Shown: one piece after another, positions 5,882-59,121 of the stretch | Numbering within the stretch: position 1 is the first letter of the stretch | Layout of the letters: each line of letters opens with the position of its first letter | Notes under the pieces: model-generated | The model's database searches: none | What the model was told of the DNA's origin: nothing | What the model saw: only the letters and a program-made list of their open reading frames with translations | Assembly (NCBI GenBank): GCA_030692515.1 | Contig: JAUXZS010000020.1 | Coordinates: forward strand, 434,001-498,000 | Direction: 5' to 3' | Length of the DNA stretch: 64,000 nucleotides | DNA from: Bacteroidota bacterium | Lineage (GTDB): Bacteria > Bacteroidota > Bacteroidia > B-17B0 > Aurantibacillaceae | Translations under genes and position numbers: made by a program

Positions 5882-7150
5882 TTGAGTATAGAAAAATTTA
5901 TAGCGGATAGGATATCAAATCCTAAACTAGACAAAGGTAACATCTCTAAGCCTATTGTAAAAATAGGCATTATTGGCATTGCTTTGGGCGTTTCAGTCAT
6001 GTTTTTAACCGTGAGCATTGTTCTGGGTTTTAAAAAAGAAATTGTAAATAGAATTACTGGTTTAACTACAGACCTTGTTATCAGTAACATTAACGTAAAT
6101 TCAAGTAACGAACCAGAGCCAATTTATTTAAATGAAGATTCGTTAAAAAAAATAAAAAATTTACCCTTTGTAAAACATCTGCAAACAACAGCTTTTAAAA
6201 ATGGCATCTTAAAAACGGAAACAGAAAATGAAGGCATAGTTTTAAAGGGAATTACTGAAAATTATAATTTTGATTTTATAAAAAAACATTTAATTGAAGG
6301 TCGTTTACCAATTTTTAAAAAAGACGAAGCAAGTAAAGACATTTTTATAAGTTCAAGTTTAGCAGAAAAATTAAACTTAAAGCTGGATGAAAAAATGTTG
6401 GTGTACTTTATTTCTCAACATGAAGTATACGATAGCACGATTAAAGATTTCATTACAAAATACGAGCAGCGTTCTCGTAAATTTACCATTTGCGGGGTGT
6501 TTAAAACGAGTTTTTCTGATTTTGATAAAAGTCTTGCATTTGTAGATTTAAAACAAATACAACGTTTAAATTTTTGGAATGAAAATCAGGTTGGTAATTA
6601 CGAAATAAGAATTAACGACTTTGAAAAATTGAATGAAAATTTAGAAACAATTCAAGAATTTTTAGGCTACAATTACAATGTGAACAGCGTAAAAGAACTC
6701 TATTCAAACATATTTATTTGGTTAGATAAACTAGATATAAATGGCATAATAGTTATTGTATTGATGATAATAGTAGCAACTATTAATATGATTACAGCTT
6801 TATTAATTTTGATTTTAGAACGCACCAACATGGTTGGTTTGGTAAAAGCCTTAGGCATGAATAATGCTCAAGTGCGGAAAATATTTTTATTTATAAGTTT
6901 AAAATTAGTTGGCAAAGGTTTGTTGTGGGGCAATATTATTGGCATTACGGCCTGTTTGCTACAACAATATTTTAAAATAATAAAGTTAGACAGTGAAATT
7001 TACTATGTAGAATACGTAGCAATTGATATTAATTGGTTGTATTTTATTGGCTTGAACATTGGCACATTTGTAGCCTGTTTCGTAATGTTATTTTTACCAA
7101 CCTTAATTCTCACAAAGCTAACGCCAATAAAGACTTTGAAGTTTGATTAG
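5882..7150 (+). CDS. FtsX/LolE-like ABC transporter permease
   Basis: A membrane protein of the MacB/FtsX/LolCE permease class with the standard topology. There is one N-terminal membrane segment (VKIGIIGIALGVSVMFLTVSI), a periplasmic domain of roughly 230 residues, and three C-terminal membrane segments (around GIIVIVLMIIVATINMITAL, LVGKGLLWGNIIGITACLL and FIGLNIGTFVACFVMLFLP). The final TLILTKLTPIKTLKFD is typical of the LolE-like ending in which the cytoplasmic tail sets the loops for an ATPase partner. Such permeases extract lipoproteins or couple ATP use to envelope events. No ATPase gene is adjacent, so its partner is encoded elsewhere. The start has to be non-ATG: GTG 5864 gives six extra residues and overlaps the divergent gene; TTG 5882 (beginning MSIEKFIADRI) avoids the overlap and fits the candidate -7 element. 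I chose the latter. Confidence 0.82.
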   Translation: MSIEKFIADRISNPKLDKGNISKPIVKIGIIGIALGVSVMFLTVSIVLGFKKEIVNRITGLTTDLVISNINVNSSNEPEPIYLNEDSLKKIKNLPFVKHLQTTAFKNGILKTETENEGIVLKGITENYNFDFIKKHLIEGRLPIFKKDEASKDIFISSSLAEKLNLKLDEKMLVYFISQHEVYDSTIKDFITKYEQRSRKFTICGVFKTSFSDFDKSLAFVDLKQIQRLNFWNENQVGNYEIRINDFEKLNENLETIQEFLGYNYNVNSVKELYSNIFIWLDKLDINGIIVIVLMIIVATINMITALLILILERTNMVGLVKALGMNNAQVRKIFLFISLKLVGKGLLWGNIIGITACLLQQYFKIIKLDSEIYYVEYVAIDINWLYFIGLNIGTFVACFVMLFLPTLILTKLTPIKTLKFD

Positions 7151-7201
7151 CTATTATGTTTTATGTTAAGCAACTTAAAACAGATTTAGTCGCGGAAATT
7201 A

Positions 7202-8083
7202 TTAATACCCAAAATTATTTAAGCGTTTATCATTACTTCTCCAATCCTTATCAACCTTCACAAACAATTCTAAGAATATTTGTTTTTTAAAAAATATTTC
7301 AAGGTCTTTACGCGCCTGCACCCCCACTCTCTTAAGAGCTGCACCTTTGTCGCCAATTATAATTCCTTTTTGACTATCACGTTCAACTAAAATATCTACT
7401 TGCGTTTTAATAATTTTCTCTTCTTCCTTAAATGTGTTTACAACAACTTCTACACTATAAGGAATTTCTTTTTTATAGTTTAATAAAATTTTTTCGCGAA
7501 TAATTTCACTCACAAAAAAACGTTCAGATTTGTCGGTAAATTCTTCTTTACTATAATAAGCATTACCATCAGGAAGCTTTTCGATAATGCGCGACATTAT
7601 TTTATCGATATTAAATTTCTCAAGTGCAGAAATGGCAATAATTTCAGCTTTCGGTAATTTTTCTTTCCACTTTAAAAGTTTTTCCTCCAATTGTTCTTGA
7701 GTGGAAATATCAATTTTATTAATTAGGAGTAAAATTGGTGTATCTGTTTGTTGAAGTTTTGTTAGATAAGACTCTTCTAATTGAATATCTTCAAAAACAT
7801 CAGTAATTAAGAGAAAAACGTCGGCATCTGTAAAAGCTGTAATTACAAATTGCATCATTTTCTCTTGCAATCTATACAAAGGCTTAATAATTCCGGGAGT
7901 ATCGCTAAATACTATTTGGTAATCCTCGCCGCTAACAATGCCCATTATTCGATGCCTTGTAGTTTGGGCCTTTGATGTAATAATGCTCAACCTCTCTCCT
8001 ACCAAGGCATTCATGAGTGTTGATTTACCTACGTTAGGACAACCAATAATATTTACGAACCCTGCCTTATGCACATTACTCAT
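7202..8083 (-). CDS. era: GTPase Era
   Basis: Era is a GTPase that binds the 3' end of 16S rRNA and assists maturation of the small ribosomal subunit; it acts at the cytoplasmic membrane face and on 30S precursors. All G motifs are visible: G1 GCPNVGKS (14-21), the switch-I TTRHR (41-45), G3 DTPG (61-64), G4 NKID (122-125) and G5 SAL near 156. A C-terminal KH domain carries the RNA-binding loop IIIGDKGAALKRVG (about 239-252). The length of 293 residues is normal for the family. It lies on the opposite strand to its neighbours on both sides and seems to be a single-gene unit reading away from the initiator tRNA. No oddities seen. Confidence 0.96.
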   Translation of the reverse strand: MSNVHKAGFVNIIGCPNVGKSTLMNALVGERLSIITSKAQTTRHRIMGIVSGEDYQIVFSDTPGIIKPLYRLQEKMMQFVITAFTDADVFLLITDVFEDIQLEESYLTKLQQTDTPILLLINKIDISTQEQLEEKLLKWKEKLPKAEIIAISALEKFNIDKIMSRIIEKLPDGNAYYSKEEFTDKSERFFVSEIIREKILLNYKKEIPYSVEVVVNTFKEEEKIIKTQVDILVERDSQKGIIIGDKGAALKRVGVQARKDLEIFFKKQIFLELFVKVDKDWRSNDKRLNNFGY

Positions 8084-14064: not shown

Positions 14065-16908
14065 ATGCCCATAAAATTGCTTAAATATATTCTTGCAGCA
14101 CTTTTCCCTTTATTGACAAATTTTATTATTGGCCAAAATAGTGAAACGCAACTACAAAATGTCTATACCATTAGTGATGGTTTACCTAGTGATGAGATTT
14201 ATCATATCGTTCAAACAAAAGATAAATATTTATGGATAGCCACCGAAAATGGTCTCGCTAAATTCAACGGTACTAATTTCAAAATATTTAATACAAGAAA
14301 TGGTTTACCTGATAATACGGTGTATAGATTATATCCTCAAACCGATGGCAGTTTATTAGGAGAAGCACAAAATAATAAGCTTTTTTTTGTGAAAAATGAT
14401 AGTGTTATGCCCTATAAATTTAATGATACCATTTCAAAATACTTTAAAGGAGTTAAAAGAATTTATTCAGTGTATTATGATGATGAACAAACCATGCACT
14501 GTGGTACATTTTATGGGTATTTTTACATTACAAAAAATGGAAAGTACATTGGAGAAAAGATGTACAAGAATTATATACACACCTCAAACGGACTTGGATT
14601 TAAAAAGTTTAAAAATTATGTTCTTAATTTTAACACTGTGCTTGAAAAGGATAGCACTAACATTTATTTAACCAATTTTTCTCTACCAATCAGAAATGCC
14701 ATTACAACTTATACTATTCCAAAGAAAAAGGTAAGCCATGAGGCAAATTATTCAAGTCTCTTAAATGATTCAATTTCTGTAATCATGTATAATCATGGAG
14801 TACATGTAATAAGTAATACTAAAATTATTACATCCCTCGAATTAAATGAAATACCAATTGGAGTGCACTGTTTTGATTCTTTAATTTGGATTTGTACAAA
14901 AGGTAATGGCGTATACTCCTATGTCTTCAACAAACAACTCATACGAAAGAAACATTTATGCCGTGGTTTAACCGTGACTTCTGTTTTAAAGGATCATTCG
15001 GGGAATTATTGGTTCTCAACTCGAGAAAAAGGACTTATTAAACATTATAATTCAACTATTAACTACAAATATACTTCCACAAAAAATTCAAATCTGAATG
15101 CGTTTTATAAGTCGTTAAACTTAAGTATTGTTGGCTTTGATGATGGTTTGCTGCAGAATATTGCTGACTTAAAAGATAGTATAAGACTCAATAGTCATGT
15201 AATGGATGTGACTGGTGATAACAAAGGCAATATGTTTGTAATAGCAGGTTATGCCGTTTATTATCTTCAAAATAATTTAAGTATAAATAAAACTGTTTCA
15301 AGTTTTATTTATGATAATCAAGGAATAGCTCGCATTAAAAGAATTAACGATACTTTAGTTGTAATTAATGCGCTAAAACACATTGCTATTTATAATACTT
15401 TTAATAAAGAAATAATTTTTAAAAGTTCCGATTTGCCTTCTGAGGATGTGATTATCTGCATTGAAGTTATTAATGACACCCTATTTGTGGCTACAAAAAG
15501 GCAATTAGAATTATTTTCTAAAAACGGCGATTTACTTATAAAATTTGCGATGCCTTGCCTAATAACAAAAATAATTAACGCAAAGCAAAATGGGGTTTTG
15601 TTTGCTTGTAAAGACGGACAAATTTACTCAACTCAAAAAAGTAAATTAGCCCCTCTAATTTTATCTAATGATAATAAGCTTGATAGAATTTACGATGCTA
15701 TCTTTGATGGCAAATTAATTTGCATTTCGGATGGAAAAAGTATTCGAAAATATGAAATAGATAAAGAAGGCTTACAATTGGTTAGTGTCGAAAATTTAAG
15801 TGGCGTAACTAAAATTTATTTATTTCAAGATTCTTTGTATTATTTAACACATGAAAGAATTTATTCAGAATACGTTAGAAATATTAAAAAAGCTCAAATT
15901 CCCTTTTTAAAATTAAATGCAATTAAGGTGAATAATCAAAAAGTAAATGAGTCAAATAATTTAGAATTAAATTATAAAGAAAATAACTTAGAATTTGAAT
16001 TTGATATTATATCCTATAGTCATGGCGAAAAAATTATTAAGTATAAATTGTTAGGATTAGACTCAAACAATTACAATTCTAACAATTTTACTCTTCATTA
16101 TTCAAAATTACCACCTGGAAGTTACACGCTAATAGCACGGTGCTCAGTAAATAATTTTGATTATTCAGAAGCAATAATTTTTGAATTCAAAATCAAAAAT
16201 CCTTTTTGGAAAGAAGTTTGGTTTGTTATTGGATTCATTTGTGTTTTCTTGTTTATTGTGTTTATAATTGTAAAATCAGCTATTAGAAAGCAAAATGAAA
16301 AATCTAAACTTGCTGAAACTATTGCAACTCTAAAATCAAAAGCACTTGCCTCTCAATTAAATCCACATTTAGTATTTAATATATTAAACTCAATCCAAGG
16401 AATTATTTCTGAAGGAAACATTGAAAAGTCTAATATTTATTTGGCCAAATTTGCAAAATTTATGCGCAATACGCTTAATTTATCTAAGCAGTCTATAGTA
16501 ACGTTGGATAAAGAAATAGAAATTACGCGCCAATATGTTGAACTTGAACTACTGCGCTTCTCAAAAGATGTACAAATCAATATTCAAAAGCTTAGCCATC
16601 AAAATTCAAATTTAATACCCCCATTAACTATACAACCATTTATTGAAAATGCAATTAAACATGGCATCATGCCATTAATTAATAAAAAAGGAATAATTAA
16701 TGTGACATTTGAAGATCAAACCAACTACTTTAAAATAATTGTTGAGGATAACGGAATTGGCATTAATGGTGAATTAAATTTCACGAAAGGTGATGGCTTG
16801 AGAATTACTTTAGAAAGACTTAAGATATTAAATAATGAAAATACTATAATTCTGGATTCAAAAAAAGAGCCAACTAGAATAATTTTAAAAATTAATAAAA
16901 ATGTTTAA
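14065..16908 (+). CDS. Propeller-sensor LytS-type histidine kinase
   Basis: 947 residues. A signal segment (1-23, ending FIIGQ) is followed by a long periplasmic two-component-regulator propeller (about 30-620), with blades such as LWIATENGLAKFNGTNF and NGLPDNTVYRL. A Y_Y_Y-type domain lies at about 645-715 (ending KLPPGSYTLIARC), then one membrane segment (about 720-742). The cytoplasmic part is a His_kinase (LytS/YehU) domain with SQLNPHLVFNILNSIQG, the likely phosphorylated histidine being H768, and a GHKL ATPase domain with QPFIENAIKHGI (N box) and VEDNGIGI (G1 box). The canonical NPHFIFN is NPHLVFN here. The frame overlaps the downstream response regulator by 8 bases, so the two are co-translated. 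It should sense an external or envelope signal; the ligand is unknown. The neighbouring divergent SBBP gene is a plausible target. Confidence 0.9.
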   Translation: MPIKLLKYILAALFPLLTNFIIGQNSETQLQNVYTISDGLPSDEIYHIVQTKDKYLWIATENGLAKFNGTNFKIFNTRNGLPDNTVYRLYPQTDGSLLGEAQNNKLFFVKNDSVMPYKFNDTISKYFKGVKRIYSVYYDDEQTMHCGTFYGYFYITKNGKYIGEKMYKNYIHTSNGLGFKKFKNYVLNFNTVLEKDSTNIYLTNFSLPIRNAITTYTIPKKKVSHEANYSSLLNDSISVIMYNHGVHVISNTKIITSLELNEIPIGVHCFDSLIWICTKGNGVYSYVFNKQLIRKKHLCRGLTVTSVLKDHSGNYWFSTREKGLIKHYNSTINYKYTSTKNSNLNAFYKSLNLSIVGFDDGLLQNIADLKDSIRLNSHVMDVTGDNKGNMFVIAGYAVYYLQNNLSINKTVSSFIYDNQGIARIKRINDTLVVINALKHIAIYNTFNKEIIFKSSDLPSEDVIICIEVINDTLFVATKRQLELFSKNGDLLIKFAMPCLITKIINAKQNGVLFACKDGQIYSTQKSKLAPLILSNDNKLDRIYDAIFDGKLICISDGKSIRKYEIDKEGLQLVSVENLSGVTKIYLFQDSLYYLTHERIYSEYVRNIKKAQIPFLKLNAIKVNNQKVNESNNLELNYKENNLEFEFDIISYSHGEKIIKYKLLGLDSNNYNSNNFTLHYSKLPPGSYTLIARCSVNNFDYSEAIIFEFKIKNPFWKEVWFVIGFICVFLFIVFIIVKSAIRKQNEKSKLAETIATLKSKALASQLNPHLVFNILNSIQGIISEGNIEKSNIYLAKFAKFMRNTLNLSKQSIVTLDKEIEITRQYVELELLRFSKDVQINIQKLSHQNSNLIPPLTIQPFIENAIKHGIMPLINKKGIINVTFEDQTNYFKIIVEDNGIGINGELNFTKGDGLRITLERLKILNNENTIILDSKKEPTRIILKINKNV

Positions 16909-17605
16909 TGCAATAATTATTGAAGACGAATACCCAGCACGAATAACCCTGAAAAGTTATTTAGAAAGGTATTTTAGCAATATAGAAGTTGTAGCAGAAA
17001 TAGAAACAGTATTAGAAGCAATTCCATTTATTAAGAATAATAAAATTGACATTATTTTTTTGGATGTGCAATTAAAAGATGGAAAGGGAATAGAGGTTTT
17101 AGAAAATATAGATTCAGAAAAATATAAAATTATTTTTACCACTGCACATGAAGAATATACTCTGAATGCATTCAAACATAAAGCATTTGGTTACTTATTA
17201 AAACCACTCGACCCAACTGATTTTAAAGAAATTGTTGAAAGAGTACTAAATGATTTAAATGCGAATAACGCAATTGATTTAGAAAAGAAAATTAAAATAC
17301 CAGAAGGTTCAGGTTATATTTGGATTGAGTTGAAAGATATTATTAGATGTGAGGCTTATGGAAATTATACTAAAATAATTACGAAAGAGAATTTAAACGC
17401 CATAACGGTATCAAAAACGTTAAAGTATGTTGAACAAAATCTAATTAAATCTGATAAATTCATAAGAGTTCATCAATCACATCTTATCAATTTAAGTTTT
17501 ATCAAAGCCAAGGAAATAAAAAACAACACTATTGCATTGCTTAATGGCGAAAAAATTCCTGTTTCTAGAGCTAAAAGAAATAATTTATTTGATAATTTTC
17601 AATAG
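16901..17605 (+). CDS. LytTR-family response regulator
   Basis: 234 residues. The receiver domain (1-120) has the acidic pair E8/D9 (IIEDEYPAR), the phospho-acceptor D55 (IIFLDVQLKDG), the conserved Thr in FTTAHEEY and the Lys in GYLLKPLD. The C-terminal LytTR DNA-binding domain (about 130-232) has YIWIELKDIIRCEAYGNYT, FIRVHQSHLINL and PVSRAKRNN. It forms an operon with the kinase upstream: its ATG lies inside the last codons of the kinase gene (8-base overlap), so the two form a cognate pair. LytTR proteins bind direct repeats upstream of promoters, and such a repeat is present at 13973-14004. Confidence 0.94.
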   Translation: MFNAIIIEDEYPARITLKSYLERYFSNIEVVAEIETVLEAIPFIKNNKIDIIFLDVQLKDGKGIEVLENIDSEKYKIIFTTAHEEYTLNAFKHKAFGYLLKPLDPTDFKEIVERVLNDLNANNAIDLEKKIKIPEGSGYIWIELKDIIRCEAYGNYTKIITKENLNAITVSKTLKYVEQNLIKSDKFIRVHQSHLINLSFIKAKEIKNNTIALLNGEKIPVSRAKRNNLFDNFQ

Positions 17606-17760
17606 TTTTTTTTATTAAAATAACCTTTGTTTCGTTTAACTTCAAGTAGTGTTTTAGCATATACTAACGGCTAAAAAAGTATGATTAGAACCTTTACCAA
17701 ACTTTCTATTTTCAATTTCTTTTATGCACTTTACGTTTTTCTGAAAGTAAAACTTAGGTT

Positions 17761-17846
17761 TACCGCTGATTCGCTTTCAAAAAAACCTGAAAGAAGAAGT
17801 CAATCTTAAATATTAAAAATGATATTTGGGATTAATTCGCACATTT
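17761..17846 (+). repeat. Left copy of an about 85-bp imperfect direct repeat bracketing the imuA-imuB-dnaE2 cassette
   Basis: This 86-base stretch aligns with 23663-23747 in the same orientation at about 85 percent identity by hand. Shared blocks include ATTCGCTTTC and GTCAATCTTAAAT, and both copies end in CACATTT. It lies 58 bases beyond the dnaE2 stop. The remainder of 17606-17904 has no gene or obvious terminator. Confidence 0.75.
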
Positions 17847-17904
17847 CTTTCCAAACTAAAGAAGGGGTAATAAAACGAAAAAAATATTTTAAATCAATAA
17901 ATGA

Positions 17905-20900
17905 TTAATGAAAATTCCTCCCACCATAAAAAACATCTCCTTGTTCAGCTTTTAAAATCTTATCTGCTCCGGGGTATCTGCTCATGTCGTAATCCTTCGA
18001 TTGATCTTCGGAAGCCCTCGCTTCTACATCACCAAGCGGCATTAAAAGTCCTGTTAAATCATAGCAACGGCTTGCTATAACATGTATTACTTCCCCCTCT
18101 TTCTGCAATTTACCTTCAACCATTAAAAAACGGCTGTGCACTATCTCTTTGCGGTATTGTGTAAACAGCTTTTCAAAAACAACCAAGTTAGCTACCCCTG
18201 TTTCATCTTCAATGGTTATAAAACAAATGCCGCTCGCTGTTCCCGGCCGCTGTCTTACCAATACAAGTCCTGCGACTTTTATAAATGAGCCATCATTACG
18301 GATTGGTAATTCTTGGTTGGCAACAACGTGTAGATGCGAAAGTTTGTTTCTAATAAAACTAACAGGATGCGCTTTTAATGAGAGAGAAAAAGATTTATAA
18401 TCTTCAAAAACGTGTTGAAATAAATTCATTTCCGGAAGCTGAATATCTTTTTCTGCAGAGGTATCAATAGGTTGTCCTGCAAATAAACCTGTATTATGAT
18501 CCTTAAGTGCAGAAATTTCCCAAAGTGCTTTACGTCGCTCCAAACCAATAGAGCGAAATGCATCTGCATTAGCAAGTAATTCCAATGCTGATAAGGAAAC
18601 ACCTGCATCAAATAACACGCCTATCCGGTGGCTCCCTGTTTTCGATTTTGAACTTTGTGTCTTATCTTTTAAATTTTGTGCTTTCAACGTTTCTCGCATT
18701 GCCACAAGTAGCTGCATGTCTTCTTCCCGCAATCCTTTCACTTGCCTGAAACCCAAGCGCAAAGAATGGTACTTGCCTTGTTTTTCTTCCAATGTATTAT
18801 CCCAATTACTATAATTAACATCAATAGGCCTTACTCCTACCTCATGTTTGCTAGCGTCCGAAATAATTTGCGCAGGTTGGTAAAAACCCATTGGTTGACT
18901 ATTTAATAATCCTGCTGCAAACACATCGGGATAATGGCATTTAAGCCATGCAGAAACATAAGCAAGCAATGCAAAACTGGCAGAATGGCTTTCTGGAAAA
19001 CCATAACCGCTAAAACCTTTCAATTGCTTAAACGTACTTTTAGCGTATTCTTCTGTATAGCCTTTGGCCATCATGCCCTTTACAAGTTTCTCTTCAAACA
19101 TCCCAACACGACCATCTGCTTTAAAAGAAGCCATGCTTCTTCTTAATTGATCAGCCTCTGCATCTGTAAATCCCCCCGCAATAATGGCCACTTCCATTGC
19201 CTGTTCTTGGAATAAAACAACACCCATGGTTCTACCTAAAATTTCTTCCAGTTCTTTAGATGGATATACTATTGGCTCTTCGCCATTACGCCTGCGTAAA
19301 AGGGGATTAACGGCCCCCCCCTGTATCGGCCCAGGTCTTACCATAGCAACTTGCATCACAAGGTCATAAAAACATCTGGCTTTCATGCGTGGCGACATGC
19401 TCATTTGCGCACGGCTTTCGATTTGAAAAACACCAATTGTATCGGCTTTGCATATCATATCATAAACCACTGGATCATCTTGCGGTATATTCGCAAGCGT
19501 TAGGTCAAGGTTGTAATGCTGTTTCACCAAATCAAAACAAATGCGTATACAAGTTAACATACCAAGTGCCAACACATCTACTTTTAAAATTCCTAAACTC
19601 TCTATATCATCTTTGTTCCATTCTATATTGGTACGGTTTTCCATTCGCGCATTTAATATAGGACACAGATCAGATATTTTGTTCTCCGTAAGTACAAAGC
19701 CGCCTGTGTGCTGCCCTAATTGCCTTGGAAACCCTCTGTATTGATTTGTCAAATTTAATACCTTTATTAAATGCGGATCTTTAGCATTAAATCCGGAAGA
19801 TGTGGCCCCTTCACCTTCAAGCCATTCTTCTGTAAATTCCCAACCCGAAGATGCAAGGCTGTCGATTGCATCCAATGAAAGTCCCATCGCTTTTCCTACA
19901 TCACGCACAGCGCCTTTAAAATGTACCTGCGTAACGGTTGCAACAATTGCGGCATGTTCACGCCCATACTTTCCATAAATGTATTGGATAATCTCTTCAC
20001 GCCGGTCATGTTCAAAATCTACATCAATATCAGGCGGCTCGTCTCGTGCATCACTCATAAATCTGCTAAAAAGCAAACGATGTTTAGTAGGATTTACTGG
20101 GGTAATTCCAAGGCAATAACAAATTACAGAGTTAGCCGCTGAGCCACGCCCTTGGCACAATATGCCAAGCCGCCGCGCTTCCCAAACATAATCATGTACC
20201 GTTAAAAAATAATAAGCAAGATCTTTTCGTGCTATAAATGCCAATTCAAATTCAATACTCTTTTTTACTTTCTCCGGTATTTGCTCACCAAACATTTTGT
20301 GCGCACCTATCCATGTATGATGAGTTAATTCCTCCTGGTGCGTTCGTCCTTCTGTGGTAAGACCTTTAGGATAGGTGTATTTTAATTCGCTTAAACAGAA
20401 CTGGCAGGCATCAGCAATTTTTTTTGTGTTCGTAATTGCATCGGGGTATTGTGCAAACAAGCGTTTCATCTCTTTGGCTGTTTTTAAATAACGCTCCGCG
20501 TTTTGATACAATTTAAATCCGGCATTTGTGATGGTGCATTTTTCACGGATACAAGTAAGTACATCTTGTAATTCTCTTCTTTCAGGCGCATGGTAATGCA
20601 CATCGTTTAGAGCAACTAAGGGTACATTATAAATTTTAGAAAGTTCACCTAAACGGAATAGTTTTTTATTGTCACTGGCATGATACGAACGTGTTGCTCC
20701 CAAATAAAAATTACCACCTAGTTTCTGTTTGTATTCTTTCAGGCATTCGATAAAAGGTTCTTCTATTTCAAAAGCAGTATTTAAAGAGGCCGGAGGAACC
20801 ATAATAAATAACAGGTCTTTTGAAAATTCATACACATCTTTCTTATATAAAAAACATTTTCCTTTTTCGGCACGCAAATTTCCTTCTGATAATAATCCTG

Positions 20901-21165
20901 ATAAATTCGCATAAGCCTGTTTTGTTTTAGGATAAGCAAGCAAAGCATGTCCATCCAATAATTCTAAACGGCACGCAGGTATGATTCGTATATTTTTTCC
21001 TTTCGTAGCTGAGTACGCTCTTACAACTCCGGCAAGTGTGTTAAAATCAGTAATCGCAATTTCAGTATAACCTAAAAGCAAAGCTTGCTCAACCAGTTCT
21101 TCAGGATGAGAACCACCTCTTAAAAAAGTAAAATTGCTTGTTATTTGTAGTTCAGTATAATCCAT
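17905..21165 (-). CDS. dnaE2: Error-prone DNA polymerase DnaE2 (ImuC)
   Basis: The C-family polymerase of the ImuA-ImuB-DnaE2 mutasome, which carries out damage-induced translesion synthesis. The N-terminal PHP domain (YTELQITSNFTFLRGGSHPEEL) has lost the usual ELHC metal-binding His (ELQI here), so its phosphoesterase activity is doubtful. The polymerase centre is intact: PDIDVDFEHDRREEII places the first two catalytic aspartates at D379 and D381, and KVDVLALGML gives the third at D530. GVVLFQEQAM, the helix-hairpin-helix region (SFKADGRVGMF to GFSGYGFPESHSASFA) and a C-terminal OB-fold (VAGLVLVRQRPGTASGICFI) follow. I start the gene at the ATG at 21165, which shares one base with the imuB stop (TGATG), a translational-coupling overlap; the upstream in-frame ATG at 21192 would give nine spurious residues. 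Length 1086 residues, normal for the family. Richer in G+C than neighbouring genes. Confidence 0.95.
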   Translation of the reverse strand: MDYTELQITSNFTFLRGGSHPEELVEQALLLGYTEIAITDFNTLAGVVRAYSATKGKNIRIIPACRLELLDGHALLAYPKTKQAYANLSGLLSEGNLRAEKGKCFLYKKDVYEFSKDLLFIMVPPASLNTAFEIEEPFIECLKEYKQKLGGNFYLGATRSYHASDNKKLFRLGELSKIYNVPLVALNDVHYHAPERRELQDVLTCIREKCTITNAGFKLYQNAERYLKTAKEMKRLFAQYPDAITNTKKIADACQFCLSELKYTYPKGLTTEGRTHQEELTHHTWIGAHKMFGEQIPEKVKKSIEFELAFIARKDLAYYFLTVHDYVWEARRLGILCQGRGSAANSVICYCLGITPVNPTKHRLLFSRFMSDARDEPPDIDVDFEHDRREEIIQYIYGKYGREHAAIVATVTQVHFKGAVRDVGKAMGLSLDAIDSLASSGWEFTEEWLEGEGATSSGFNAKDPHLIKVLNLTNQYRGFPRQLGQHTGGFVLTENKISDLCPILNARMENRTNIEWNKDDIESLGILKVDVLALGMLTCIRICFDLVKQHYNLDLTLANIPQDDPVVYDMICKADTIGVFQIESRAQMSMSPRMKARCFYDLVMQVAMVRPGPIQGGAVNPLLRRRNGEEPIVYPSKELEEILGRTMGVVLFQEQAMEVAIIAGGFTDAEADQLRRSMASFKADGRVGMFEEKLVKGMMAKGYTEEYAKSTFKQLKGFSGYGFPESHSASFALLAYVSAWLKCHYPDVFAAGLLNSQPMGFYQPAQIISDASKHEVGVRPIDVNYSNWDNTLEEKQGKYHSLRLGFRQVKGLREEDMQLLVAMRETLKAQNLKDKTQSSKSKTGSHRIGVLFDAGVSLSALELLANADAFRSIGLERRKALWEISALKDHNTGLFAGQPIDTSAEKDIQLPEMNLFQHVFEDYKSFSLSLKAHPVSFIRNKLSHLHVVANQELPIRNDGSFIKVAGLVLVRQRPGTASGICFITIEDETGVANLVVFEKLFTQYRKEIVHSRFLMVEGKLQKEGEVIHVIASRCYDLTGLLMPLGDVEARASEDQSKDYDMSRYPGADKILKAEQGDVFYGGRNFH

Positions 21166-22661
21166 CACGTAAAAAATCCATGTATAAACCATTTTACATT
21201 ACCGCTATCATAATCGCCTGAACGAAAAAGCCAGTAGCGTGAGCCGTGTTCATCTTCCACGCAATAGTAATCCCTGTATAATCCTTGCTGTAGCCACCAT
21301 TCCTGTTCAATGCGTTCGGGTCCATCTGCTTTTTTTACATTATGTATAACACCTTTATATCGAAATAATAATGGCGGATAATCAGGAATAGGAACACTCA
21401 CTTCTATTAATTCTGGAACAGGTAAAATATGTAATGGCCTTGGCAAATCTGTTCGCCATTCGGTACTCGCTTTTTCGCTTAACGATGTTGCATTTTTAAA
21501 AGACCGTTCAGGCCAGTAATGTTCTGCGGGTAAATAACGATGTATAGCTTGCACACCTGTTTTACCTGATAGTCTGTCTAGTAATTCAGCAATAACGGAT
21601 TCGTCTTTGCCGCTTACTGTCCATAAAGCATCTTGCGAACTATGTAACTCTTCTACAACTAAAGCATCCATCACAAATAATTCAATTCCTAGATCAGGTT
21701 CTATTTGGGATATTTTATTTTCAAACAGTTTATATAAATGTAATGTATTCCTAGATGGCTTACTTGTGCCTATTTCTGTTTTTACAACAACACCATCTAA
21801 ACGATAACAGGTTAAGGTGCATTTACGCAATCCTTTCATTTCCTGTTGCAAACGTTCACATAACATCTGCAATAAAGTTTTAATAGCAATTTCAATACCC
21901 TCCGCGGTGCGTATTGGTTCTAAACTTGGTAAACGTTTCTGGAAAGGTATAAGAGGTTGCATAGGCTCTGTAATTTCCATTTCTTCACCAAGGGCTTGTG
22001 CTAATCGTTTTAATATACTTTGTCCAAAACGTCTTTTTAATGCGCTACTTGGCATGGTAATAAAGCTGCCTATGGTTTTTAATCCAAGCTTATCCAGTTT
22101 ATCTATGATCGAAGGTTCTAATCGCAAAGCAGTATTGGGTAAAGAAGTAAGGGCTTTTACTTCTTTACCTGTTTCAATAATACTTCCGCTATTTCCAAAA
22201 TGGCAAACCGCCCATGCTGTACCTATTGTATCTGCCATAGCACTTCTTATTGTATAACCAAAGGCATTAAATTTTTTATGAATATCATTTAGGTAATTTT
22301 GTTCACCTCCCCACAAATGTGTGCAACCGCTTACATCCAATATTAAAACATCTGGCAGGTCAATCGAAATAAAAGGCGAATACCGGATACACCATTCAGC
22401 TAATGCAGTTAATAATTTCTTAGGTTCAGCTTCATCGTAATCACATACGGTTAATTCGGGTAATAACGCTTTGCAGTCTGCCAGTACCATATCAACCCGA
22501 ATTCCTTTTTCTTGTGCTAATGCATTTATTGCTTTAACAACACGCCTACCTCTTTCATTCACTACTAAAACAAAAGGTATATCTTTTAACTCAGGCTGTT
22601 TACGTAAGAACCTATCAGTTACCAAATGAGGAAACCATATCACCGCAATCCTTCTACTCAT
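21165..22661 (-). CDS. imuB: ImuB, Y-family polymerase-like mutasome hub
   Basis: 498 residues, related to Y-family DNA polymerases but without their active site. The first acidic motif is replaced by AVIWFPHLVTDRF, and the SIDEA-type motif by LILDVSGCTHLWGGEQ, as expected for ImuB. ImuB acts as the non-catalytic adaptor that links the sliding clamp, ImuA and DnaE2. The finger/palm core lies at about 1-180, a helix-hairpin-helix/thumb region at about 190-250 (KLDKLGLKTIGSFITMPSSALKRRFG), and the little-finger equivalent up to about 360. The C-terminal part (VPIPDYPPLLFRYKG, GPERIEQEWW, RDYYCVEDEHGSRYWLFR) is the conserved ImuB tail. It starts 2 bases after the imuA stop and ends in a TGATG overlap with dnaE2, so all three are one operon. 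Confidence 0.93.
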   Translation of the reverse strand: MSRRIAVIWFPHLVTDRFLRKQPELKDIPFVLVVNERGRRVVKAINALAQEKGIRVDMVLADCKALLPELTVCDYDEAEPKKLLTALAEWCIRYSPFISIDLPDVLILDVSGCTHLWGGEQNYLNDIHKKFNAFGYTIRSAMADTIGTAWAVCHFGNSGSIIETGKEVKALTSLPNTALRLEPSIIDKLDKLGLKTIGSFITMPSSALKRRFGQSILKRLAQALGEEMEITEPMQPLIPFQKRLPSLEPIRTAEGIEIAIKTLLQMLCERLQQEMKGLRKCTLTCYRLDGVVVKTEIGTSKPSRNTLHLYKLFENKISQIEPDLGIELFVMDALVVEELHSSQDALWTVSGKDESVIAELLDRLSGKTGVQAIHRYLPAEHYWPERSFKNATSLSEKASTEWRTDLPRPLHILPVPELIEVSVPIPDYPPLLFRYKGVIHNVKKADGPERIEQEWWLQQGLYRDYYCVEDEHGSRYWLFRSGDYDSGNVKWFIHGFFT

Positions 22662-22663
22662 AT

Positions 22664-23404
22664 CTAACCAATTTGCCTTTCATCAATCTCATCTATAATA
22701 ATTTGTTCGGGCAATATGTATTCTAATCCCTTGGGCGACCATTGTACCTGCCAATTTCCTGTTTTACCGTTTCTTACTTTTAATAATTCTACATGCCATC
22801 TCGAAAACCCAACGCCAGGTGTTTCACCGGCTGCACTTACAATAGATTTTATTTTCCATCTGCTCACACAAGCAACCGCATTTTCTGTCTTTGGTCTAAA
22901 GCGATGAATGAATCCAGTAACATGGCTTTTCTCAACTGCTAATTGCAATCTTCTTGAATCATTAAAAGTCAGTTCTGTAATTTCTCCTACAACGGCCACA
23001 AGCGCATTGCATTTTAAAGCTTCTTCAACAGCCCACAATGTATCTTTGGTTCTGCCGGCATCTACAAATAAAATGCGTTCAGGATCTATTCCAAATCCTT
23101 TTAATGCGCTCGGAAAAACACTTCTCCTTGGCACAGTGCTTATCCATAAACAATATCCTGAGTTGGGCATTAGCTTTCCAAGCACAACCGAAATAAAACC
23201 ACTGGTGCAGGTGGCTTCTTCGGCAGTATTGCTTATCAGTTCATGAACCGCTCCTTTTGTAAATACTTTTCCCGGAAAAGCGGCTTCCATAATTCCTAAA
23301 CCAATGCTTAAAGGTTGATCGGCAGGAGGCACATGGTTCTGTTGCAACTTCTCAATTTGTTGTTGCAATTGTTCAATCATGACTCTGTCTGCTACCTTTC
23401 TCAT
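22664..23404 (-). CDS. imuA: ImuA, RecA/SulA-like mutasome component
   Basis: 246 residues, first gene of the mutasome operon. A basic, coiled N-terminus (MIEQLQQQIEKLQ) precedes a degenerate RecA-like core: LSIGLGIMEAAFPGKVFTKG, then AVHELIS and FISVVLGKL where RecA would have Walker A, then YCLWIS. The segments ERILFVDAGRTKDTLWAVEEAL and NALVAVVGEITEL are typical of ImuA. No functional Walker A (GxxxxGKT) is visible. The C-terminus (WHVELLKVRNGKTGNWQVQW) is the conserved ImuA ending. ImuA is needed with ImuB and DnaE2 for damage-induced mutagenesis. An in-frame ATG at codon 9 is an alternative start. Upstream lies an imperfect dyad that may be the damage-response operator. Confidence 0.9.
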   Translation of the reverse strand: MRKVADRVMIEQLQQQIEKLQQNHVPPADQPLSIGLGIMEAAFPGKVFTKGAVHELISNTAEEATCTSGFISVVLGKLMPNSGYCLWISTVPRRSVFPSALKGFGIDPERILFVDAGRTKDTLWAVEEALKCNALVAVVGEITELTFNDSRRLQLAVEKSHVTGFIHRFRPKTENAVACVSRWKIKSIVSAAGETPGVGFSRWHVELLKVRNGKTGNWQVQWSPKGLEYILPEQIIIDEIDERQIG

Positions 23405-23441
23405 TCCGCTTATTTGGAATAATAAAGGTAACTACATATAA

Positions 23442-23457
23442 TAGCAATTTTACGCTA
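23442..23457. promoter_or_regulatory. Imperfect dyad upstream of imuA (possible SOS operator)
   Basis: TAGCAATTTTACGCTA is a partial palindrome with outer half-sites TAGC/GCTA, 38 bases upstream of the imuA start. LexA boxes are poorly conserved across Bacteroidota, so this is only a positional candidate. Confidence 0.25.
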
Positions 23458-23662
23458 CAAATTATAGTAAGTTAATTTTTTAACACTTGAAGCCCAGTAT
23501 GTTATTTTTTCAATAATACATTTTCAAAAAAATTCCCACAGGCGGGTATCAGATAAATTATCAAATACATTACTTTTCTTCATCGTTGATAAAGTAAACT
23601 CTTCTTTTTACTTACTAAAATATTACACAATAAAAAATACCAGTTTGCAATACCCTTTTGTG

Positions 23663-23747
23663 TACCACAGATTCGCTTTCAGAAAAACCAGAAAGAATAA
23701 GTCAATCTTAAATACTAAAGATTATATTAGGATTCATTCACACATTT
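23663..23747 (+). repeat. Right copy of the direct repeat bracketing the mutasome cassette
   Basis: Partner of 17761-17846, same orientation. It lies 258 bases upstream of the imuA start. The two copies and everything between them span about 6.0 kb. Confidence 0.75.
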
Positions 23748-23947: not shown

Positions 23948-24373
23948 TTACAGGCAGTAATAATTTGAATGCGTAAATGGCTTTAACAGTTGTTTGTTTA
24001 TCTCTTCAATAATTCCATTTTCGAATAAAGGTTTGAGACAGTGTCCATCAAAACCTTGTTTCAAATACCATTCTCTGGAACCTGAGGCTGCTGTTACAGC
24101 TATTATTTTAATATGATTGTATTTTCTATTGTATCTGATAGTTCTCATGGTTTTTGGACCATCCATTGCTGGGTCATCTAGATTAATATCCATTAAAACA
24201 ATATCAAATTTTGTTTTTTCAATCATGATTAAAGCATCATATCCATTTGTTACTGAATGGACTTTAAAATGGGCTTTAAGATACGTCTCAGCTAAAAAGA
24301 TACTGGATGGATCGTCCTCTACAATTAATATTTTAAAGGGTTGAATTGGTTTTTCGTTTAGTTCAATATTCAT
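23948..24373 (-). CDS. Stand-alone receiver-domain response regulator
   Basis: 141 residues, a single CheY-like receiver domain. It has the acidic triad E19/D20/D21 (ILIVEDDPSS), phospho-acceptor D62 (IVLMDINLDDPAMDGPKTM), the conserved Thr/Ser in AVTAASGS and the Lys in CLKPLFENG. There is no output domain, so it would act through protein partners, for example as a phosphotransfer intermediate or a hybrid-kinase partner. No histidine kinase is next to it. The short gap to the hypothetical gene upstream (61 bases) allows co-transcription. Confidence 0.9.
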   Translation of the reverse strand: MNIELNEKPIQPFKILIVEDDPSSIFLAETYLKAHFKVHSVTNGYDALIMIEKTKFDIVLMDINLDDPAMDGPKTMRTIRYNRKYNHIKIIAVTAASGSREWYLKQGFDGHCLKPLFENGIIEEINKQLLKPFTHSNYYCL

Positions 24374-57323: not shown

Positions 57324-58631
57324 ATGACTTATACTCAAACGCTAGATTATTTATTCGCGCGTTTACCAATGTTTCAAAGAGTTGGTGCTGCTGCTTACAA
57401 GGCCAATTTAGACAATACTCATAAAATTGTTGAATTGCTTGGCAAACCTCATGAAAAAATAAAATGCATTCATGTTGCGGGTACTAATGGTAAAGGCTCT
57501 TCTAGCCACATGCTAGCCGCAATTTTACAACAAGCTGGATATAAAACAGGGTTATACACTTCGCCACATTTAATTGATTTTAGAGAACGTATAAAAATTA
57601 ATGGGAAGATGATTCCTAAAAATTACATAACAGAATTTGTAGAAAAATATAAAGAATCCTTCGAAGAAATTGAACCAAGTTTTTTTGAATGGACCGTTGG
57701 TTTGGCATTTGATTATTTTGCAAATGAGGAAGTTGATGTAGCTATTATTGAGGTAGGTTTAGGCGGTAGATTAGATTCTACAAACGTGATTAAGCCAGAA
57801 GTTTGTTTAATAACCAATATAAGTTTTGACCACATGAATTTGTTAGGTGATACTCTAGAAAAAATTGCGGCAGAAAAAGCAGGCATAATTAAATCTAGAG
57901 TTCCTGTAATCATAAGCCAATATCAAAGCGAAAGTGGTCCGTTATTTAATGCAGTTGCAAAGGATTTAAAATCGACTATTGAGTTTGCAGATAAAGTTTT
58001 TAAAATAATTGATTACAAAATTGCAGATGGATTTTTAAATACTACTATCCTAAATAGAAAAGCAAACACTTCTTTAAATATTGATTTAGATTTAACAGGA
58101 TTATATCAATTAAAAAATTTGTTAGGAGTTTTAAATACAATTGAATTTATTAAAAATGTAGGGTTTATAGTTGAGCCCGAAAATATTAAGCAAGGTTTAA
58201 AACATGTGGTTAAACTAACAGGATTAAACGGCCGCTGGCAAATTATTAGTGAAAATCCTTTAATGATAACAGATACTGGGCATAATGAAGATGGTATCAA
58301 AAATGTAATCGCAAATTTAAAAACCATTACATTTAATAATCTGCATTTTGTTTTTGGGGCTGTAAATGATAAAGATGTTTCAAAAATATTAGAATTATTA
58401 CCAAAAGAAGCTACTTATTATTTCACAAAAGCAAACATTCCAAGAGCCTTAAACGAAAACGAATTACAAGAACAAGCTCAAAAAATAAAATTAAAAGGTA
58501 AAGCATTTGAAACTGTAAAATCTGCAATAGAAGCAGCAAAAAAAGCTTACAAAAAAAGCGATTTAATTTTAATTGGCGGCAGCACCTTTATTGTTGGTGA
58601 TGCTTTAGCGGAAAATTGTTCTAATAAATAA
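57324..58631 (+). CDS. folC: FolC, folylpolyglutamate / dihydrofolate synthase
   Basis: 435 residues. The Mur-ligase-type ATP-binding P-loop is HVAGTNGKGSSSHMLAAIL (about 51-69). Other family landmarks are GLYTSPHLIDFRERI, FEWTVGLAFDYFANEEVDVAIIEVGLGGRLDSTNV, ITNISFDHMNLLGDTLEKIAAEKAGI and LMITDTGHNEDGIKN. The enzyme adds glutamates to folates and may also make dihydrofolate from dihydropteroate. It is the last gene of the exb-tonB operon, starting 2 bases after the tonB-like stop. A second, divergent copy of its 3' end lies in the repeat region just downstream (58911-58955). Confidence 0.95.
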   Translation: MTYTQTLDYLFARLPMFQRVGAAAYKANLDNTHKIVELLGKPHEKIKCIHVAGTNGKGSSSHMLAAILQQAGYKTGLYTSPHLIDFRERIKINGKMIPKNYITEFVEKYKESFEEIEPSFFEWTVGLAFDYFANEEVDVAIIEVGLGGRLDSTNVIKPEVCLITNISFDHMNLLGDTLEKIAAEKAGIIKSRVPVIISQYQSESGPLFNAVAKDLKSTIEFADKVFKIIDYKIADGFLNTTILNRKANTSLNIDLDLTGLYQLKNLLGVLNTIEFIKNVGFIVEPENIKQGLKHVVKLTGLNGRWQIISENPLMITDTGHNEDGIKNVIANLKTITFNNLHFVFGAVNDKDVSKILELLPKEATYYFTKANIPRALNENELQEQAQKIKLKGKAFETVKSAIEAAKKAYKKSDLILIGGSTFIVGDALAENCSNK

Positions 58632-59121
58632 GCTACTAATTGCACGAATTAACACTAAACTATTTTTTAATACCCAAAATTTACTTGGTGGTTTTCCTGG
58701 TAATTATTAATCTTATAACAAAAGCGAAAGCAATTACAATATAAGCCACTAATTGCACGAATTAACACTAAACTATTTTTACTTAACCAAAATTTCATTG
58801 GTGAAATAATTGTTCTAGCTATACATCGCTCTGAACAAATAAATTACACAAATAATAATTAGCGATAAGAATAATCAAATAACACTTTGTGGAATTAGTC
58901 TTTTTCCGTTGATGCTTTAGCAGATAATATAGCTGAAAACAACTCAAATAAATAAGCCACGAATTACATGAATTAACACTAAACTATTTTTTAATAACCA
59001 AAATTTACTTGGTGAAATAATTGTTCTAGCGATATATCGCTTTGAACAAATAAATTACTCAAATACAATTAGCCTTATGAATTTGCAAACAATAATTTGT
59101 GAAATTAGTGTAATTAGTGGC
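58628..59121. repeat. Non-coding repeat array with a second folC 3' end and inverted ends
   Basis: Three direct units begin ATAAGC(T/C)AC(T/G)AATT and continue CACTAAACTATTTTT: R1 58628-58690 (short), R2 58741-58853 and R3 58952-59064 (both 113 nt and about 90 percent alike). R1 starts inside the folC stop region. R3 is preceded (58911-58955) by a sequence that reads VDALADNIAENNSNK then stop, the counterpart of the folC end VGDALAENCSNK then stop. The right end (59094-59121) is an inverted version of the left end: GCCACTAATTACACTAATTT on the minus strand against R2 GCCACTAATTGCACGAATTA. A related motif lies at 56427-56446. No gene is seen in 58632-59129. Confidence 0.8.

Follow-up and report, generated by a model that had tools for sequence, protein, structure and literature searches.

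The imuA-imuB-dnaE2 operon and its promoter

The stretch of DNA analysed here, which we call the window (64,000 nucleotides; positions 434,001 to 498,000 of contig JAUXZS010000020.1 in the Bacteroidota assembly GCA_030692515.1), carries an ordinary ImuA-ImuB-DnaE2 mutasome operon, and this operon is bracketed by a pair of imperfect direct repeats. The three genes run in the same direction on the minus strand (17905-23404, from the open reading frames of the window), and their order, imuA-imuB-dnaE2, is common to most of the relatives' loci. In what follows G000 is the window's own genome, the other G labels are genomes of relatives, and L labels are loci.

The first gene, imuA (22664-23404, minus strand), encodes a RecA/SulA-like protein of 246 residues whose best match is the ImuA family NF033429 (E 5.6e-16); its 59 bits fall under the family cut-off of 150 but are comparable to the 59-68 bits scored by the ImuA proteins of three relatives, and no Walker A motif was seen by eye in the window protein. 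Between imuA and dnaE2 lies imuB (21165-22661, minus strand), which encodes a Y-family-like protein of 498 residues with a Pfam IMS match (E 1.4e-12); its translation reads SIDL where Y-family polymerases have their SIDE motif. The last gene, dnaE2 (imuC; 17905-21192 as the longest frame, minus strand), encodes an error-prone C-family DNA polymerase of up to 1095 residues, with a match of 1279 bits to the error-prone DNA polymerase profile NF004225 (cut-off 939) and with the Pfam domains PHP, DNA_pol3_alpha, finger, HHH_6 and OB. An alternative ATG at 21165, which has one base in common with the imuB stop codon, is a likelier start for dnaE2 than that of the longest frame.

A preliminary description of this DNA had reported no transposase or integrase inside the cassette, and indeed no match to either was found in the three operon genes or in 12 flanking window proteins, in a Pfam scan confined to these proteins. 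It had also remarked on the higher G+C content of the cassette. The difference itself is upheld (39.0% against 32.4% for the whole window), but the contrast that had been drawn overstates foreignness, because the excess lies largely at codon positions 1 and 2, where coding constraint acts, and because the neighbouring kinase gene used as comparator (27.8%) is unusually low. G+C at positions 1 and 2 is 43.6-45.3% in the cassette genes, and 43.3 and 44.2% in two dehydrogenase-complex genes (named by reading); at third positions the cassette genes have 24.6-30.8%, against 26.1% in the genome's own dnaE1. The G+C content of the cassette is thus weak evidence of foreign origin.

Two CTA-N7-TAG boxes, spaced 23 bp apart, are found in the imuA promoter: the SOS-type operators CTATAATTTGTAG (23455-23467, minus strand) and CTATTATATGTAG (23432-23444, minus strand), which lie 63 and 40 bp upstream of imuA. 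Two boxes within a 250-bp upstream region were reached by 6 of 2000 simple shuffles. The window's genome has two S24-peptidase matches above the Pfam cut-off, one of them a LexA-like HTH_3+S24 protein of 257 residues, whose gene is itself preceded by boxes CTATAATTAATAG and CTATAAATTATAG at the same 23-bp spacing. Within the genus a CTA-N7-TAG box stands upstream of imuA in all seven cassettes with readable upstream DNA (250 bp, 189 bp in G030; the upstream region of G011 is missing, so that it lies outside this count), at -36 to -64 in six of them and at -143 in G003, where the start is uncertain. Across the wider loci the box is far from universal, being present in 19 of 70 against 6 after shuffling, some of these loci being the same cassette fetched twice. 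For Bacteroidetes a LexA-like family with CTAA-N5-TTAG as a motif has been reported, its S24-family repressor having imuA-imuB-dnaE2 in its regulon (PMC8565304). SOS control is a sound reading here because the box layout is shared and because a published regulon lists these three genes; the window operon is probably damage-induced, with the LexA-like S24 protein of its genome as the repressor.

The operon and its proteins vary among the relatives. The ImuA frame of G003 (L035 7110-8243) has about 140 extra N-terminal residues, its ImuA match beginning at residue 168 as compared with residue 29 in the window protein. In G031 (L034, about 7030-7690) some 670 bp of low-complexity repeats, judged by eye, split the operon between imuB and dnaE2, and in five Dyadobacter genomes (L085, L098, L100, L126, L129) imuB is separated by 3.5-6.3 kb from the imuA match upstream of it, as though the operon were interrupted by inserted DNA. 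Besides DnaE1, many genomes of the genus also have another DnaE-like frame, which is about 1000 residues long and about 30% identical to DnaE2 (for example G019:C2:370422-372302).

Direct repeats at the ends of the cassette

As the preliminary description had noticed, imperfect repeats in the same orientation bracket the operon. Copy 1 (17758-17846, plus strand) lies downstream of dnaE2, and part of it is foldable as a 14-pair hairpin (fold z -2.86); copy 2 (23660-23747, plus strand) lies upstream of imuA, and its hairpin is degenerate (fold z -0.50). The copies are 88-89 bases long and, with one gap, align over 89 columns at 85.4% identity and 99.6 bits; the gap-free match (17753-17829 with 23655-23731) is at 84%. 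Two stretches, of 16 and 12 bases, are identical in both copies, and the differences are scattered across all 89 columns.

In the 4.33-Mb assembly (68 contigs) this repeat occurs in two copies only, one at each end of the cassette; of the 28 matches, the next in rank is 18 bases long (E 0.03). The preliminary description had considered that the repeat might be scattered over the genome without relation to the operon; we find no such dispersed family, as none of the 26 weaker matches is a full copy. When these 26 were realigned, seven scored 20.5-24, where the highest of 200 random stretches reached 20; selection for a shared seed would be expected to give such an excess. Within 103 kb of contiguous DNA the window copies are the sole non-coding repeat pair lying kilobases apart, and the remaining three non-coding matches form one local array (58606-59109). 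Given that the two copies are alone in the assembly and form the only such distant pair in the 103 kb, we reject a chance repeat. The array at 58606-59109 is intergenic and follows a gene that reads as folC-like; the 3′ end of this gene is duplicated, together with the stretch after it, at 83-89% identity. Apart from tRNA-Met, the window gave no Rfam match that would point to a structured RNA, and neither a tRNA nor a transfer-messenger RNA (tmRNA) gene was found within about 9 kb of the cassette.

The repeat was absent from 59 relatives and from 394 other genomes of the class, four of which held fragments of 26-35 bases, the scored first-look candidates per genome numbering at most 14 in the first search and 2 in the second. 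On the left the cassette adjoins a LytTR response regulator (16901-17605, plus strand), which lies with a kinase (14065-16908) in a lineage-specific context, and on the right a stand-alone response regulator (23948-24373, minus strand) with a best identity of 47% among the 24 genus relatives searched. No close orthologue of the flanking kinase and regulator was found in the 40 relatives searched (24 of the genus). No cassette-free site bearing one repeat copy was found for the window, the searched relatives having neither the repeat nor, where these were sought, close orthologues of the flanks. We also considered carriage of the flanking DNA by phages or plasmids, and dropped it after an exact core pattern of the repeat found nothing in IMG/VR, the search of phages was empty, and plasmids gave two matches of 36 bases (E 0.006). 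The DnaE2 profile had one distant match (27%) in viral contigs.

Transfer of the cassette within the genus

DnaE2 is present at at least 70% identity in eight of 37 genomes of the genus (36 relatives and the window's own), several of the genomes without it being incomplete, down to 60%, and in 23 genomes from other families the DnaE2 matches listed are at 36% or less. When placed on a 35-row tree of the replicative polymerase DnaE1, the cassette needs seven gains or losses and does not cluster. G000 and G019 are 88.8% identical in DnaE2 as against 75.2% in DnaE1, and all three of their cassette proteins are 85-89% identical; conversely G019 and G006 are 97.8% identical in DnaE1 and 71.5% in DnaE2. 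Of two 8-row trees, that of DnaE1 groups the hosts as G000 with G030 and G019 with G006, whereas that of DnaE2 pairs G000 with G019, G023 with G006 and G003 with G030 (support 100/100 in both trees). We applied four approximately unbiased (AU) tests, taking the pairs from the other gene's tree: the host pairs G019-G006 or G000-G030, when forced on DnaE2, were rejected, as were the cassette pairs G000-G019 or G023-G006 when forced on DnaE1 (p 2.4e-7 or less in each case). Host relationships here rest on DnaE1; pyruvate dehydrogenase E1 was tried as a second host marker, and was found to be too conserved (96.3% between G019 and G006, 92.3% between G000 and G019) and truncated in G030.

The sharing of three proteins at 85-89% by G000 and G019 indicates that the operon moved whole. 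The G003-G030 pair, at 86% in DnaE2 but 74% in ImuB and 57% in ImuA, indicates that parts are also exchanged alone. At the other seven genus loci we found, beside the cassettes, no close orthologues of the window's neighbours, only matches of 24-48% to members of large families, and the 2-kb flanks of the genus loci align with each other only near the promoter (flanking DNA being short on the G011 contig and on one side of G030). The cassette thus stands at changing genomic sites. The proposal of the preliminary description that it was acquired and moved as a unit is borne out by these comparisons: by the three proteins at 85-89% to G019 beside a DnaE1 at 75%, by the AU rejections, and by the lack of neighbour orthologues at the other loci. 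The opposite case that it had envisaged, of a cassette fixed at one site with a matching phylogeny, is not what we see, as the sites change and the DnaE2 and DnaE1 trees conflict. An acquisition sideways, from a relative within the genus, is in our view well supported on the sequences compared.

The alternative that the operon is ancestral to the genus, relocated by rearrangement and lost many times without any transfer, agrees with its unclustered spread over the genus tree, but is highly improbable given the opposed DnaE2 and DnaE1 identities of G000-G019 and G019-G006, for which losses would be insufficient without deep paralogues, and given the AU rejections.

Of 72,556 plasmid records, 744 carry an ImuB homologue. 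The one closest to the window's, at 55.9%, is on a 94.6-kb Dyadobacter plasmid (NZ_CP099631.1, 34419-35909).

Flanking repeats at other cassettes

From 87 candidates we left out four as duplicates and another 19 in which the flanks were short or imuA was missing or stood apart; the remaining 64 cassettes, the window's included, were tested with 600-bp flanks at a threshold of 40 bits. Direct repeats above this threshold bracket three of them, namely the window (99.6 bits), UBA1947 (L074; 59.0) and G019 (41.9), and are lacking at the other 61. Control pairs, which were unfiltered for coding DNA, exceeded 60 bits in 5 of 368. Within the genus two of six cassettes are repeat-flanked (p 0.004), and the window, from which the idea of the test came, is one of the two. 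Between the window repeat and the other two pairs there are chance-level short matches of 13 bases or fewer; when the repeats of G019 and L074 are compared as a pair of sequences, they have 17-20 bases in common (E 0.002), which is a weak likeness. Since 61 of the 64 cassettes have no such repeats and the window repeat is unlike the other pairs, the window repeats belong to the site or the event and not to the cassette; the earlier suggestion that they are the ends of an element is, on these two counts, wrong or unproven.

The G019 cassette adjoins ssrA; a single repeat unit precedes its imuA, and two follow its dnaE2 (78%, about 50 bp). In G019 these units are confined to the cassette site, apart from weak matches, and small arrays of them occur in G021 and G006. 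In G006, whose DnaE1 is 97.8% identical to that of G019, the ssrA side aligns at 83-87% and the array is present with no cassette there, G006's own cassette being at a different location; in G021 a similar array stands among different neighbours, again with no cassette. On its opposite side the G006 ssrA site carries different genes, one of which has matches to hydrolase and rhodanese. On the side of the G019 cassette away from ssrA lies a DUF2490 gene, whose matches in G006 and G035 are at 28-29%; G021 has none, and G022, which is more distant, has a relative at 61%. Our comparison of the flanks showed no duplicated ssrA end on that side. The ssrA-side array is thus a busy place, and DNA inserted between two of its units would come to be flanked by direct repeats.

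Small arrays of a composite hairpin unit are located at L143 8598-8927, L144 8137-8450 and L033 11283-11490, with ssrA adjoining in G006 and G019. Their neighbouring genes vary by genome, and part of the unit resembles, by eye, the T-arm end of ssrA.

A link between the window and G019 repeats was considered and dropped. The pattern AGATT-N-GCT-N19-ATAAGTCAA has exact matches, among 40 genomes, in copy 2 of G000 and twice in G019, but it had been drawn after both repeats had been seen. A model of the G019, G021 and G006 units misses the window copies, and when the repeats are compared directly their identical stretches are of at most 10 bases.

How the cassette may have entered its site

We propose that the window cassette is a damage-induced operon, acquired sideways within the genus, which entered its present site by recombination at a short repeated sequence; we would put the probability of this whole reading at a little under one half. 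Incoming DNA would recombine at a short repeated sequence by either of two routes: a circle with one repeat copy could recombine with a chromosomal copy (Campbell type), or DNA could enter a local repeat array between two of its units, which appears to be what happened with the G019 cassette at ssrA. By both routes one copy would be left on each side, the copies later drifting to 85% identity, and neither would require a dedicated recombinase. We infer that the window repeats are the scar of an insertion at, or between, short repeats; that they are a footprint of recombination is plausible, at about even odds. In favour of this are the confinement of the repeat, within the assembly, to the two ends of the cassette, the conflicting DnaE2 and DnaE1 pairings, the changing sites and the parallel case of G019. 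The window copies, at 85%, are less diverged than the third codon positions of the G000 and G019 cassettes (60-67% identity), so that the duplication may postdate the split of these two cassettes.

Several observations weigh against this proposal. Flanking repeats are rare: they occur at 3 of 64 cassettes, which compared with the controls (5 of 368) gives a Fisher p of 0.10, and with the window excluded the figures become 2 of 63 overall (p 0.27) and 1 of 5 in the genus (p 0.08). No empty site and no third copy of the window repeat was found anywhere searched. The left side of the G006 ssrA site is unlike that of G019, so the two are not a clean before-and-after pair, and the G019 unit family has no match to either window copy at E up to 10, the longest identical stretch being 10 bases. 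We apply our reading of the G019 site to the window with caution, as the window has no ssrA close by, no third repeat copy and no relative that has its flanks. Finally, the G023 cassette adjoins a sensor/LytTR pair that is 28-34% identical to window proteins of the same large families, a resemblance that we take to be chance, putting it down to the 20-30 matches that the kinases have in many genomes.

Because the enrichment of repeats is not significant without the window, we hold the proposed entry at a repeat slightly less probable, and coincidence slightly more so, than we otherwise would. By coincidence or later duplication we mean that a short, hairpin-bearing intergenic unit was duplicated locally and only by accident stands on both sides of an operon brought in by longer homology or with an island. 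This is possible, if on balance unlikely: the genome does contain local non-coding duplications (58606-59109), copy 1 is foldable as a hairpin, the flanks themselves look lineage-specific, and with only 3 of 64 cassettes repeat-flanked the difference from controls is not marked (p 0.10, or 0.27 without the window). Yet the 103 kb contain no second kilobase-spaced non-coding pair, the assembly contains no further copy, and the nearest cassette, that of G019, is repeat-bracketed too.

A third explanation, which we consider quite unlikely, is that the repeats are the attL and attR sites of a mobile element with the operon as cargo, its recombinase being supplied in trans or lost. The repeats are long and in direct orientation with no integrase inside, their identical stretches of 16 and 12 bases would suffice for a crossover core, ImuB homologues are found on plasmids (744 of 72,556 records), and the G019 copy adjoins ssrA, a common attachment gene. 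Against this, the window repeat is unlike the other two bracketing pairs and 61 of 64 cassettes have none above 40 bits; the differences are spread along all 89 columns; the three operon genes and 12 flanking proteins scanned include no recombinase; and no tRNA or tmRNA gene lies within 9 kb of the window cassette.

Returning to entry by recombination at a repeat, a more speculative extension, to which we give little credence, is that the mutasome operon of this genus roams as a cassette that encodes no recombinase and is captured by homology at short hairpin units, which vary between genomes. Such an operon may promote its own transfer, because its products would be induced by damage, when recombination is high.

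Comparison with known systems

Our analysis documents a clean, quantified swap of a stress-mutagenesis operon between hosts of one Bacteroidota genus, from draft assemblies, and a possible scar of integrase-free operon entry into chromosomes. If the scar reading is true, repeat-bracketed accessory operons could be sought generally; if it is false, a well-supported but ordinary transfer remains.

Hot spots for accessory genes at the 3′ sides of ssrA and tRNA genes are of a known kind. The G019 cassette resembles them in adjoining ssrA where G006 has other genes, whereas the window site has no tRNA or tmRNA gene within about 9 kb and no integrase among the proteins scanned. The ImuA-ImuB-DnaE2 cassette was reportedly the subject of a 2006 survey by Erill and others. 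The window operon is like the imuABC SOS mutasome cassette in gene order, domain content, SOS-type operator and sideways spread, but differs in being bracketed by direct repeats that are unique in the genome; among the open-access matches listed, none describes a repeat-bracketed imuABC in its title or abstract. Plasmid-borne imuABC cassettes have been described (PMC4151985). The Bacteroidetes LexA-like SOS regulon (PMC8565304) is alike in its S24-family repressor, in the membership of imuA-imuB-dnaE2 and in the CTA-N7-TAG frame of its motif; the window boxes differ from it in reading CTAT-N5-(A/G)TAG and in forming a tandem pair 23 bp apart.

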